Positions 1 to 5,185 of a stretch of DNA of 49,328 bases are shown here, one piece after another. Position 1 is the stretch's first letter; every line of letters starts with the position of its first letter. Made by a program: the position numbers and the translations under genes. The notes under the pieces were generated by a model. It ran no database searches and was not told where the DNA came from. It worked only from the letters and a program-made list of their open reading frames with translations. Source of the stretch: Armatimonadota bacterium (lineage in GTDB: Bacteria > Armatimonadota > UBA5829 > JAUSEB01); the NCBI GenBank assembly GCA_030649165.1, contig JAUSGG010000101.1:1-49328 (forward strand). The letters run 5' to 3'.

Positions 1-65
1 ACAATACGATCAAGTTCTCGCCGCTCCTGCGGCGTCAAATCGATTCGTGGAAGCGCTCGCGCCAT
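1..65 (-). CDS. IS630-like transposase, N-terminal fragment (runs off the left edge)
   Basis: Only the first 21 codons are present. The ATG at 65 follows a good AGGAGG Shine-Dalgarno, and the peptide begins MARALPRIDLTPQERRELDR. This resembles the start of IS630-family (Tc1/mariner-like DDE) transposases, where a 'LTPEER..L' segment opens the N-terminal helix-turn-helix. The gene lies just beyond the point where the upstream cyclase frame is lost, as expected if an insertion sequence entered that gene. The fragment is too short to exclude another HTH protein. Confidence 0.45.
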   Translation of the reverse strand, partial: MARALPRIDLTPQERRELDRI

Positions 66-122
66 ACTGCCTCCTACCTTTTTTTGTAGGATAACACGTA
101 CGCGAGTATTAGTCAATGTATT

Positions 123-605
123 TCAGAAACGCACTACTAGCATAGGCCCGTAGTCTATCCCGATGCCACATCTAACGTTGTCGTAAGGGAAGTGCTCGTT
201 CATGACGAACTGGCTCACAGAGTTTATCAGAACGGCCGTATGGACGGCGTTTTCAAAGCAGTTGAGAGGCGGAAAGACCACCATCACTCTGTCTCCAGTT
301 ATGGCTCTGACTTGACCGCCAAAGTGGGATCCGCATTGGGTCATGGCCCGACCGAAGAACGAATACAACTTCGCGATCGTATCGAGGCGGTGATCCAGGT
401 TCAATTGCGTCGACTCCCTGATATCGACGTAGAGAACACACGTGTCGATTCGTTTGCATTTCATGTCCTTGGTCTTCAGGTTGGCGAATGTGATCTGCGA
501 GTCTTCGTCTGATGGGACTACCGTGGTCCTACAATGGCTCACCTTGAAAGTCGGGGCGGTAATGGCTCCAAGCTCATCACGCAAGCTATCTACCAGTTCG
601 ATCAT
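123..605 (-). pseudogene. pycC: Pycsar-type class III nucleotide cyclase (PycC-like), 3'-truncated
   Basis: The 160-residue product is a class III nucleotidyl cyclase homology domain without a membrane or partner domain. The two metal-binding aspartates are visible: D61 in YVDIREST and D105 in AITGDRVMVVF, followed by the GIGIDYGPMLVV strand near residues 147-158. In intact family members the domain continues for tens of residues after this strand, often followed by a C-terminal sensor domain. Here the frame stops after VVRF, about 58 bases before the IS630-like start codon. The gene starts 12 bases after the stop of the effector gene, so the two form an operon. In Pycsar defence, PycC makes cCMP or cUMP on phage infection and the nucleotide activates the partner. 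Lacking the rest of the domain, the product is probably inactive. Which nucleotide the intact enzyme made cannot be told. Confidence 0.75.
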
Positions 606-617
606 ATTCAGATGCTC

Positions 618-1193
618 CTATACAAGCTTAATGAGAATACGGATGACAGCGATTATATAAGGTAGCATAATGCCCATCATCGCAGCAAGTATGCCCAACA
701 GTGCACGCCGAGTGGCGTGGACGAATAAGCTGTATTTCCCGCTGGCGATCCGGGCGTTTATGATGGCCTGCGCGGCGAGATCAACATCGCTCTTGTTGTC
801 TTGCGGTGTATAGTCTGCTTGGAGACAATAACGCTCAGCTATCGCTTGCGCCAAGCCGTTCGGGCTGTATTTCTGTATGTGGCCGAAAAAATACAGGTTG
901 TCCTCTACACTTGGTTTGTCGCACTTGCGGTCAGACAACACTTTCTTCGGATTTGTTTGAGGCAAAAACGATTTGAGGCATAGCAGCGCACTCCACATCA
1001 GTAATACAGAGCTGTACAGGAACAACGCTCCTCCATTGCTCAGTCCACTTGTCGAATATGGAGTTAGGCTAAGTACGGCCATCGCGCTTGCGCTAGAGAA
1101 CGCAAACAATGCCCCGTTTTTTGCTTCGGCAAATCGAAGCCAATCGTTTGTGAGCCCGAATATGTAGGAGAGCTTCTTCTCTACCTCTGACAT
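618..1193 (-). CDS. pycTM: Pycsar-type transmembrane effector (PycTM-like)
   Basis: 191-residue membrane protein. The N-terminal helix contains DWLRFAEAKNGALFAF, resembling the 'aD/E-x-K-x-g' start of Pycsar effector domains, followed by two hydrophobic segments (about residues 25-45 and 52-75). A soluble middle leads to a helix with NARIASGKYSLFVHATRRAL and a C-terminal hydrophobic stretch (about 165-190). In the family, cyclic CMP or UMP triggers the membrane effector to damage the inner membrane and abort infection. It is directly upstream of the cyclase gene (12-base gap), the inverse of the commonly shown cyclase-effector order. An in-frame ATG at 1199 is only 3 bases from the GGAGG; the ATG at 1193 has a 9-base spacer and is preferred. 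The gene looks intact although its partner is broken. Confidence 0.75.
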   Translation of the reverse strand: MSEVEKKLSYIFGLTNDWLRFAEAKNGALFAFSSASAMAVLSLTPYSTSGLSNGGALFLYSSVLLMWSALLCLKSFLPQTNPKKVLSDRKCDKPSVEDNLYFFGHIQKYSPNGLAQAIAERYCLQADYTPQDNKSDVDLAAQAIINARIASGKYSLFVHATRRALLGILAAMMGIMLPYIIAVIRILIKLV

Positions 1194-1236
1194 GCCCATG
1201 TGCCTCCATCAGCAGTTTGCCTGGTCGGGAAGATCA

Positions 1237-2048: not shown

Positions 2049-3137
2049 TCAGTCTTCCGCCTTCCACACCAGCTTACCGGTCCTATCGATGTAGCTCGGC
2101 TCGCCGCCGATGTCCGGCCTGTACTTCCACACACGGGCGAGGCCATCTCGGAAGCTCTCGACGCGGTCGTATGAGAGTCTTAAAACCGCTTTCCCGCTAC
2201 TGTTGATGAAGCTGTAGCGGCGCTTATTCACTGACACTGTGTCATGGCCATCCGGGTCATCGAGCGTGATGATCTCCTGCCCCGGCCTGCTTGTGCTGAC
2301 CAGCGCAAGCCCGTCGGAAAAGCTCTCAGCGTGCTCGAACTGAGGCTCAATCACGGTCTTGCCCGTCTTGTCTATGTAACCCCAGCCCGAATCAATGGGA
2401 AAACGAACCGCCGCCAGCCCTTCGTGAAAGGGTTGAACAGAGGAGAAGCGAGGCTTGATCACGACCTTGCCTGTCGCGTCGACGTACCCTGACTTTGGGT
2501 ACTCTTCGTCTGTTGGAGCTGCCGCGAGCCCTTCGGAAAAATGCAGGCTTCTGAGCGCCCGACGATCGATTGCTGAACGGCCCTTGAGGATGACGTACCC
2601 GAAGCCCCTGCTGCCCTCGTATTCGATCACAGACTCAAGTGTTTTTCCCGTCCGGTTGATAAGCGCCAGCCTGCGACCGTCTCCCGGTCCCTTGATATAG
2701 ACGCGCGCAACGCCATTGTGGAAAACGCCGGGCGAGAAATAGCGCGCCGGTATAACGAGCTTGCCCTTCTTGTTTACGTAGCCCCACCTGTCGTCCCTCT
2801 CATTGGCTCCCTTGACGACACGGACGGCGGCCAATCTCTCAGAGAACTCCGCGGCGTCACTGAATTGAGGCTTGATCACAGATCTGCCGGCCTTGTCGAT
2901 GTAGCCGTATCCGGCGTCTTCCCCGAAGCCGATCTTGACCCGGCCGAGCCCTTCAGAGAAGTAGTTTGCCCCGTCGAAACGAGGACGAATGACGACCTTG
3001 CCGGCGCGGTTCATATAGCCCCACATCCCTCCTCGCACAATGGGAAACAAAGGGCGCTGGTCAGTCGCCGCGGGGCAGGACGCTGCGAAAAGCAAGGCGA
3101 TCGCTGCGCACCAGGCCGGAACTGCAATTCGTTTCAT
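2049..3137 (-). CDS. secreted WG-repeat protein, 8 units
   Basis: 362 residues with a signal peptide (cleavage after about residue 24, CPAA). The rest is a run of WG (KWG-type) repeats of about 38-45 residues. Each unit carries a core like WGYMNRAGKVVIRPRF followed by an 'F-x-E/D-G-L-A' turn, and about eight are recognisable. WG repeats form beta-rich domains of unknown function and are common in secreted bacterial proteins. The start overlaps the stop of the upstream WG gene by an ATGA, so the two are translationally coupled. No catalytic motif is visible; a binding or structural role at the cell surface is inference. Confidence 0.85.
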   Translation of the reverse strand: MKRIAVPAWCAAIALLFAASCPAATDQRPLFPIVRGGMWGYMNRAGKVVIRPRFDGANYFSEGLGRVKIGFGEDAGYGYIDKAGRSVIKPQFSDAAEFSERLAAVRVVKGANERDDRWGYVNKKGKLVIPARYFSPGVFHNGVARVYIKGPGDGRRLALINRTGKTLESVIEYEGSRGFGYVILKGRSAIDRRALRSLHFSEGLAAAPTDEEYPKSGYVDATGKVVIKPRFSSVQPFHEGLAAVRFPIDSGWGYIDKTGKTVIEPQFEHAESFSDGLALVSTSRPGQEIITLDDPDGHDTVSVNKRRYSFINSSGKAVLRLSYDRVESFRDGLARVWKYRPDIGGEPSYIDRTGKLVWKAED

Positions 3138-5185
3138 TGCTGCTCCTTTCCGAGTTTCCAGCCGACGCCCGCCACTCCTTGGGAAAAGTCGCCCGCGCCA
3201 TCGAACTGCTCCTCGATGACCATTTTGCCGGTCTTGTCGATATAACCGTACCTCGGGTTTACCGGGTCACCGGTGACGGCGAAAGCCAGTCCATCGTAAA
3301 ACCCGCCTGCAAGGCTGAACTTCGGCTGGACGACGATGTTCCCACTCGTGTCGATGAACCCCCACTGCCCGCCATTCTCAAGATTGCCATTAACGCTCAC
3401 CATAACCGGCGCCAACCCTTCTGAGAATGCGCCGGCAAGGTAGAACTTAGGCTGAACGACAAACTTGCCGGTTGTGTCGATGTAGCCCCACCTTTCATCC
3501 TGTTGGATGCTCTTGCCCACAGACACCGCCGCCAGGCCGCCTCGAAACGGTTCCGCTCTAAGGAACTGCGGAGCAATGACGACACTCCCCTTCTTATCGA
3601 AATAGCCGTAATTGGTGTGCTTCACCAGCACGCTGGCCAGTCCGTCGGAAAAACTCCCGCACAGCTCGTTCTTGGTTCGGAAGACCTCATTCCCGGATCG
3701 ATCGATGCAGTACGCCTCCATTGTGTCAAGGTCCGTGGCCCAGGCAAGCCCTTCCGAGAAGTCGTTTGCCATGTAAAGGTCCGCCGGTATCACCATCTTA
3801 CCAGTCCCATCGATGTAACCAGCTCCCTCGTGGGTCTCCACACGAGCAAGGCCCTCTGAGAAACCGGCTGCCCATCGATACCGCGGCTCAACCACTGTTC
3901 TGCCGGAACCATCGATGTACCCCCACTTGGCAGATTGCTCGTCGCCAAAACCCACGGGGATCAGGCCCTCAGTGTAGCGGCCCACCATATCGAATTGCGG
4001 CTGGATCACAAGCTTGCCTTGTTTATCTGCAAAACCCCACTTCCCAGTCTCCTCATCTCCGATCCTGACCGGAATGAGTCCGTTGGACATCACGCCCACA
4101 GCGTCATAACGCTTGTTGGTGACGAGCTTGCCCATTCTGTCGATGATGCCGTACGTCCCGCGCCTAGTGCTGGTGCGTGCAAACGCGGCGAGCCCCTCAG
4201 AGAAGTCAGATGCGCCGACCCACTGATTCGGTCCGACTACCAGGTTGCCAGCCTTGTCCATATAGCTCCACCGCTGCCCGATGGAGACTCTTGCCAAGCC
4301 GTTGCGGAACGGCCCCTCGGGGACCATTTCGCTGGTCGGCGCGCAGGTTATGACCTCTATTCCCTTCTTGTTGATGAACCCTCTGCCGCCATTGCTCCAT
4401 ACGAGCGCCAGACCTTCTGAGAAACCTTCTCCGATTGGCGTCACATTCTTGATCACGGTTTTCCCGGAGGTATCTATGCAGCGGTAACTGAAATTGTTGT
4501 TGCCAATGCGTTTGGCAACGAACGCCAGTCCGTCCAGGAATCCCGCGGCGTGATCGTACTGGGGTTTGATGGCTATTTTGCCCGCTCTATCGATATATCC
4601 CCACATCGGTTTAACCAGGTTGCCTGTTGCAACCGGCGCGAGCCCGCACGAGAAGTCACCGGCGTTGATATACTTCGGCTTGATCCTGATCTTGCCGGTC
4701 TTGTCGATGTAGCCCCACCTGTCGGGGTAGCGCTCAACACAGACGCGAGCGTAACCTGCGCGAAACGGGCCCGCTTGGTGATAGCGAGGCTTAATCACCA
4801 TATTGCCTGATTTGTTGATGAAACCCCACTTGTCTTGCTGCTTGCTTACGGCAGCCAGACCCTCGGAAAACCCTGCAGCCCGTTGGTATTGAGGTTTGAT
4901 GACGACCTTGCCCGCCTTGTCTATGTAGCCTCTAAGCTCGTTCCTACCACCCCAATCGGTTCCGGCGCTGTAGTCGGTGACCACTGCCAGTCCCTCGTGA
5001 AACGGCTCCGCTGCCGCGTAGGGTAGATCGAGGGCAATCTTTCCCTTGGCATCTATGTAGCCACACGTCTGGACACTCCCCTGGCTGCCGCGAACCGACG
5101 GCCCGGCTCTCTGTGTGTGACCCTGTGCGGCTGCGCTAAGCGGGAAGAAGACGGCGAGGCAGATTGCCACGAAGGCATATCTCAT
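3134..5185 (-). CDS. secreted WG-repeat protein, 17 units
   Basis: 683 residues: signal peptide (about residues 1-20, ending SAAAQ) followed by about 17 consecutive WG repeats with cores such as WGYIDKTGK, WGFINKSGN and YGYFDKKGS. Each core is followed by 'IKPQY' and 'FSEGLA' elements, at a period of about 38 residues. Some cores have lost the Trp (YRCIDTSGK, AYCIDRSGN), so the units are diverged rather than freshly duplicated. AGGAG lies 7 bases before the ATG. It is the first gene of a two-gene unit with the shorter WG protein. Family function is unknown; the protein should be exported and entirely repeat-built. Confidence 0.85.
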   Translation of the reverse strand: MRYAFVAICLAVFFPLSAAAQGHTQRAGPSVRGSQGSVQTCGYIDAKGKIALDLPYAAAEPFHEGLAVVTDYSAGTDWGGRNELRGYIDKAGKVVIKPQYQRAAGFSEGLAAVSKQQDKWGFINKSGNMVIKPRYHQAGPFRAGYARVCVERYPDRWGYIDKTGKIRIKPKYINAGDFSCGLAPVATGNLVKPMWGYIDRAGKIAIKPQYDHAAGFLDGLAFVAKRIGNNNFSYRCIDTSGKTVIKNVTPIGEGFSEGLALVWSNGGRGFINKKGIEVITCAPTSEMVPEGPFRNGLARVSIGQRWSYMDKAGNLVVGPNQWVGASDFSEGLAAFARTSTRRGTYGIIDRMGKLVTNKRYDAVGVMSNGLIPVRIGDEETGKWGFADKQGKLVIQPQFDMVGRYTEGLIPVGFGDEQSAKWGYIDGSGRTVVEPRYRWAAGFSEGLARVETHEGAGYIDGTGKMVIPADLYMANDFSEGLAWATDLDTMEAYCIDRSGNEVFRTKNELCGSFSDGLASVLVKHTNYGYFDKKGSVVIAPQFLRAEPFRGGLAAVSVGKSIQQDERWGYIDTTGKFVVQPKFYLAGAFSEGLAPVMVSVNGNLENGGQWGFIDTSGNIVVQPKFSLAGGFYDGLAFAVTGDPVNPRYGYIDKTGKMVIEEQFDGAGDFSQGVAGVGWKLGKEQQ

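Follow-up and report, generated by a model that had tools for sequence, protein, structure and literature searches.

A Pycsar operon in an Armatimonadota genome with its cyclase gene apparently broken by an IS630-like element

The question raised by this locus is whether an effector and a cyclase lying at the end of a contig still form a working Pycsar antiphage system or whether, as a first-pass annotation had proposed, the operon was inactivated by an insertion sequence. That proposal proved right in substance. With a probability of about 0.92, the preferred reading is that a horizontally acquired effector-cyclase Pycsar operon had its cyclase broken by an IS630-like element that transposed in at a CTAG, and that the system is dead for defence. 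The observations beneath it are an element end, a truncated cyclase frame that stops inside the element, an intact effector and no detectable second half of the cyclase in the assembly.

The window is the whole stretch of DNA that was analysed and comprises the entire contig C37 (49,328 bases) of a 5.48 Mb genome in 266 contigs with 2.46% contamination. The contig starts at window base 1, and the portion of the element inside the window is 140 bases only. Both operon genes lie on the minus strand, with a rubrerythrin gene upstream. Their two frames (618-1199 and 123-605) were present as first described, 12 bases apart with the effector upstream, and neither contains an internal stop. The features are as follows.

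1 to 140, minus strand: right end of an IS630-like insertion sequence (five right ends the same to base 140, then divergent; a whole copy elsewhere in the genome)
About base 65 to base 1, minus strand: start of a transposase frame (MARALPRIDL...) in the element end
137 to 140: CTAG forming the element edge
123 to 136, minus strand: element bases read as V R F (plus part of the preceding V) and a TGA stop (codon map and five-end alignment)
141 to 605, minus strand: Pycsar-type class III cyclase gene, 5' half, coding for residues 1-155, with residues 156-157 on the CTAG (PADLOC PycC and relatives)
618 to 1199, minus strand: intact PycTM-type effector gene, 193 aa (Pfam PF18967, PADLOC and full-length alignment)

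Further into the contig, window positions 2049-5185 hold two adjacent genes composed mostly of WG repeats, with 6 matched stretches in one and 13 in the other.

The effector was searched against profile collections and matched Pfam PF18967 (PycTM) at 32.4 bits, over a cut-off of 27.2. PADLOC PycTM models matched it with a best E of 1.1e-24, and the generic '2TM effector' models of PADLOC scored it slightly better (best E 8.8e-34). No other family was found in Pfam, and none above cut-off in NCBIfam. Four effectors of 175-183 aa, sharing 19-37% identity with the 193-aa protein, aligned along its whole length, and all four plasmid matches of the protein are annotated 'Pycsar system effector family protein'. 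The initial description of an intact, Pycsar-like effector was borne out: judged from these matches the protein is of PycTM type and full length, and it is predicted to damage the membrane in response to a cyclic pyrimidine.

The cyclase fragment matched the PADLOC PycC profile PDLC02367 at E 5.6e-25 over profile positions 3-151 of 226, in agreement with its proposed identity as a class III cyclase. It fell below the cut-off of Pfam Guanylate_cyc (18.3 vs 21.9), which is passed by a full-length Parageobacillus relative (28.1). Both metal-binding aspartates named in the first-pass annotation, D61 and D105, are kept and are invariant in an alignment with 10 relatives. Identity of the fragment was 46-57% to six plasmid-borne full-length cyclases and 37-43% to four other full-length cyclases. 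Searched alone against solved chains, the fragment had 7r65 as its sole match (E 3.9e-06); a profile of the fragment plus 10 relatives gave 7r65 as best match (E 1.6e-24), followed by the uridylate cyclase 8jsz (E 1e-18). The 7R65 chain is BcPycC, a clade B enzyme homologous to the one here, and its Y50 and R97 correspond in the alignment to Y59 and R106 here. As described in PMC11224242, Y50 and R97 are the UTP-recognition residues of BcPycC, Y50, D94 and R97 together serve clade B pyrimidine recognition, and other clades differ; the same source describes EaPycC as a homodimer of head-to-tail subunits whose active sites lie at the interface. The window's cyclase differs from BcPycC in carrying T103 in place of D94, a position occupied by I or V in its relatives, and in lacking everything after residue 157.

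Element ends were located with window bases 1-170 as the genome query. Five places agree from window base 1 (or 2) through base 140 and diverge beyond; they are identical over the common 139-140 bases and all five right ends finish in CTAG. An IS630-like element does truncate the cyclase, as first proposed, but its edge does not lie near the transposase start codon at about base 65: since the five right ends agree to base 140 and differ beyond it, the boundary is base 140. It follows from the codon map that the 160-residue frame takes its final three residues and its stop from the element: residues 1-155 belong to the gene, 156-157 fall on the CTAG, and 158-160 with the TGA are element DNA.

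A whole copy of the element is present on contig C85. It is 1142 bases long with 13-base exact terminal repeats (CTAGTAGTGCGTT) and encodes a single 345-aa transposase with HTH and DDE_3 domains (PF13358, 84.3 bits, cut-off 28.6), features by which the element appears IS630-like. Left ends were likewise found at five places, the one on C85 beginning at the element without a flank; four left ends match the complete copy at 100% identity across 140-141 bases. CTAG stands at 5/5 right and 5/5 left ends (the flankless one included), where a duplicated target and the element's own bases are indistinguishable without an empty site. These ends fit the target reported for IS630 of Shigella sonnei, a preference for the TA within CTAG (Tenzen and Ohtsubo 1991); according to PMC2170065, IS630 has a single transposase of Tc1/mariner type. 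The likeness to the Shigella element consists of the CTAG target and the single transposase, and the two are set side by side by description, not by sequence. CTAG is scarce in the window, with 18 occurrences vs 56 expected from trinucleotide counts. The idea that imported DNA offered a preferred CTAG target was unsupported, the operon holding only one further CTAG (P for excess 0.31).

The amount of enzyme lost was gauged from 15 full-length relatives at 14 loci (7 plasmid, 5 viral contig, 2 at a single Chitinophaga locus and 1 in a genome of this phylum). The frame does stop shortly after the GIGID strand, as first noted. None of the 15 ends at residue 160, an ending that the first-pass annotation had named as grounds for refuting it. 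A motif of the form W-x-G...N-x-A-x-[KR]-L lies beyond the cut point in 15/15 relatives and is absent from the remnant, which ends by residue 157. The GID-strand pattern was matched in 13 of the 15, making them measurable; because these run on for 156-185 further residues past that strand, about half of the enzyme is taken to be lost. In class III cyclases the N...K/R motif stabilises the transition state. With the later strands gone, and with them the asparagine/lysine-arginine motif that completes the dimer-interface active site, we strongly infer that the remnant cannot make a cyclic pyrimidine (cUMP or cCMP).

In the preferred reading, a two-gene Pycsar operon (effector, then cyclase) would have been acquired horizontally, and an IS630-like element would then have transposed into the cyclase gene at a CTAG. 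The half-cyclase would make no cyclic pyrimidine and the membrane effector would never be activated; left so, the system would give no phage defence and do the cell no harm. The cell would be phage-sensitive and freed of a cost, and the spread of the element, not selection, would be enough to explain the insertion.

Horizontal transfer of the operon is likely from its composition and its distribution. Its G+C content is 50.3% against 59.1% for the window, and in a sample of relatives a cyclase match better than E 1e-30 was found in 1/300 other genomes. The third-position G+C of the two operon genes is 0.67 and 0.58 vs 0.69-0.80 in eight other genes. At E 0.001, cyclase matches occurred in 17/301 genomes, the only strong one besides the window's own being in G045; PycTM matches occurred in 10/300 other genomes, 8 of them over cut-off. 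A scan of genome contigs yielded one cyclase locus, in Chitinophaga. No empty site, a comparison put forward in the first-pass annotation, was found among the 301 genomes, only one other of which has a strong cyclase match. The insertion looks recent, since the element ends are identical among copies and neither frame is otherwise defective.

It is unlikely, though the best surviving of the alternatives, that the insertion is polymorphic, with part of the source population keeping an intact operon and the assembly showing the broken allele; for that allele it would be compatible with the preferred reading. The genome's 266 contigs, its contamination of 2.46% and the one missing element flank would suit such a mixture. 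However, the cyclase contig begins with 140 element bases like the other junction contigs (eight in all, carrying 139-141), and the junction itself is unbroken, where a well-covered intact allele should, depending on the assembler, have broken the assembly. The contig probably ends inside the element because the repeat could not be resolved.

The fate of the 3' half was followed at the other copies of the element. It was sought beside the four assembled left flanks (C57, C58, C240 and C245), with frames read outward, and was not found; a profile of the second halves of six relatives, which had no positive control in this genome, also returned nothing. The search for the missing half proposed in the first-pass annotation was in this way empty. 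The four flanks were then compared with the right ends. For C58/C52 the frames share a register and remain open up to the edge; a 57%-identical repeat over 72 residues lies on both sides. For C57/C85, tandem Creatininase genes (71% identical, in the same direction) lie on both sides. C240 ends in a CcmF gene and C205 begins with siroheme-synthase and glutamyl-tRNA-reductase genes; haem and cytochrome genes such as these are often neighbours. For C207/C245 there are 242 and 122 open codons in one register, with no Pfam family. This last pair rests partly on elimination, because equally long frames arise in other joins (C58 with C207 gives 462 or 715 codons). Joining C240 to the cyclase contig in silico also leaves 493 open codons, a result that speaks against this pairing scheme, but the frame runs antisense to the CcmF gene.

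The other four right ends thus have plausible left partners and C37 alone is left unpaired. On that ground, the missing fifth left flank is probably the one with the cyclase 3' half, and it probably went unassembled or unbinned. As a separate observation, the Creatininase-family genes (L010:197-976 and L005:1367-2143) adjoin left and right element ends as if the element lay between tandem copies.

Less probable again is that truncation or deletion removed the 3' end of the cyclase, either earlier than the insertion or together with it, and that no 3' half exists; the gene would be equally inactive. With the second half and the empty site both unseen, there is room for a deletion next to the element, and one would be in keeping with the lack of any 3'-half match, both genome-wide and next to the four left flanks. 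Against it, each of the other four right ends can be assigned to one of the four left flanks; the left partner of C37 is unassembled, and the absence of the 3' half from the bin is therefore expected without any deletion.

Under the preferred reading it also matters whether another cyclase could serve the effector. The genome has no second match to the PycC profile PDLC02367, the one PycC profile used for this genome search, and no second PycTM. One other class III cyclase is encoded, on C99; it passes Pfam and matched no PADLOC model at E 0.01. With neither a second PDLC02367 match nor a PADLOC match for the C99 protein, the effector is most likely silent. That the orphan PycTM is still used, answering cyclic nucleotides made in trans by a cyclase of the cell or of an invader, is very improbable: its frame is intact and a second class III cyclase exists, but that cyclase goes unmatched by PADLOC and the insertion looks recent from its identical element ends, so that the intact effector needs no selection to explain it; if true, loss of the cyclase would have changed the trigger of the orphan effector instead of ending defence.

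Gene order was compared across the 14 related loci. The first-pass annotation had taken the effector-first order as inverse to the usual one; this was not upheld, nor was the order a sign of anything unusual, effector-first being the common order in the subfamily. Ten of the 14 have both genes on one strand with the effector upstream (L031, L032, L033, L034, L035, L040-L044), the genes are divergent in 2 (L036, L037) and the effector is downstream in 2 (L014, L038). This count omits plasmid matches H7 and H8, phage match H15, L039 (cyclase 28% identical) and the weaker genome matches L015-L030. At L031 a different cyclase stands between the effector and the related cyclase, and at L035 the effector is frame-split. 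The closest parallels named are the plasmid operons of Parageobacillus and Paenibacillus (NZ_CP040554.1, NZ_CP010270.1 and NZ_CP011513.1), where the effector likewise immediately precedes a same-strand cyclase, with cyclases 53-57% and effectors 34-37% identical to those of the window. They differ in that their cyclases are full length (324-327 aa) and no insertion is annotated.

Several of the compared loci are of interest in their own right. In the Phyllobacterium zundukense plasmid NZ_CP017941.1 (L035:2377-2957), an intact related cyclase is preceded by an effector whose coding sequence falls in two frames, a second half-broken Pycsar with the damage here to the effector; a sequencing error is possible. 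In a plasmid of Deinococcus sp. NW-56 (L038:1560-3888), an IS982 transposase gene is annotated between cyclase and effector, both with open frames. Chitinophaga sp. CF418 (L031:2358-6776) has a PycTM-like frame followed by four cyclase-like frames in succession (264, 335, 338 and 267 aa), the first called by eye and unscored by profile. A Paraclostridium plasmid (L039) has the order cyclase-effector-cyclase. Such multi-cyclase Pycsar loci may deserve study. In G014, from the same order, a 449-aa frame that is cyclase-like by eye lies two genes upstream of a PycTM effector (L057:5023-7763); no cyclase-profile match was found near that effector within the 3.3-kb locus L052.

Insertion sequences that break defence genes are already known, and this is a further instance, in a Pycsar operon. 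PMC10359306 reports 163 natural insertions in cas genes, together with IS1 or IS10 insertions in 12 other kinds of defence cluster. As here, an insertion sequence breaks a defence gene in those cases; unlike the present case, the survey of non-CRISPR systems was made with IS1 and IS10 and did not involve an IS630-like element. The main text of that paper does not mention Pycsar. In the portions available of the literature on Pycsar with insertion sequences, no description of a Pycsar cyclase carrying an insertion was found, which is weak evidence of absence.

As an example of a known defence system being lost, the locus is clear but ordinary; it places a Pycsar operon among the defence systems observed with insertion-sequence damage. 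It offers a base-exact example of how an abortive-infection system may be lost, the signal synthase being broken and the effector most likely left silent. It also shows that a tally of effector genes may exceed the number of working systems. Of the 14 loci compared, one pairs an intact cyclase with a frame-split effector and another has an insertion sequence annotated between its two genes, so a systematic survey could cover decay of both kinds of gene.
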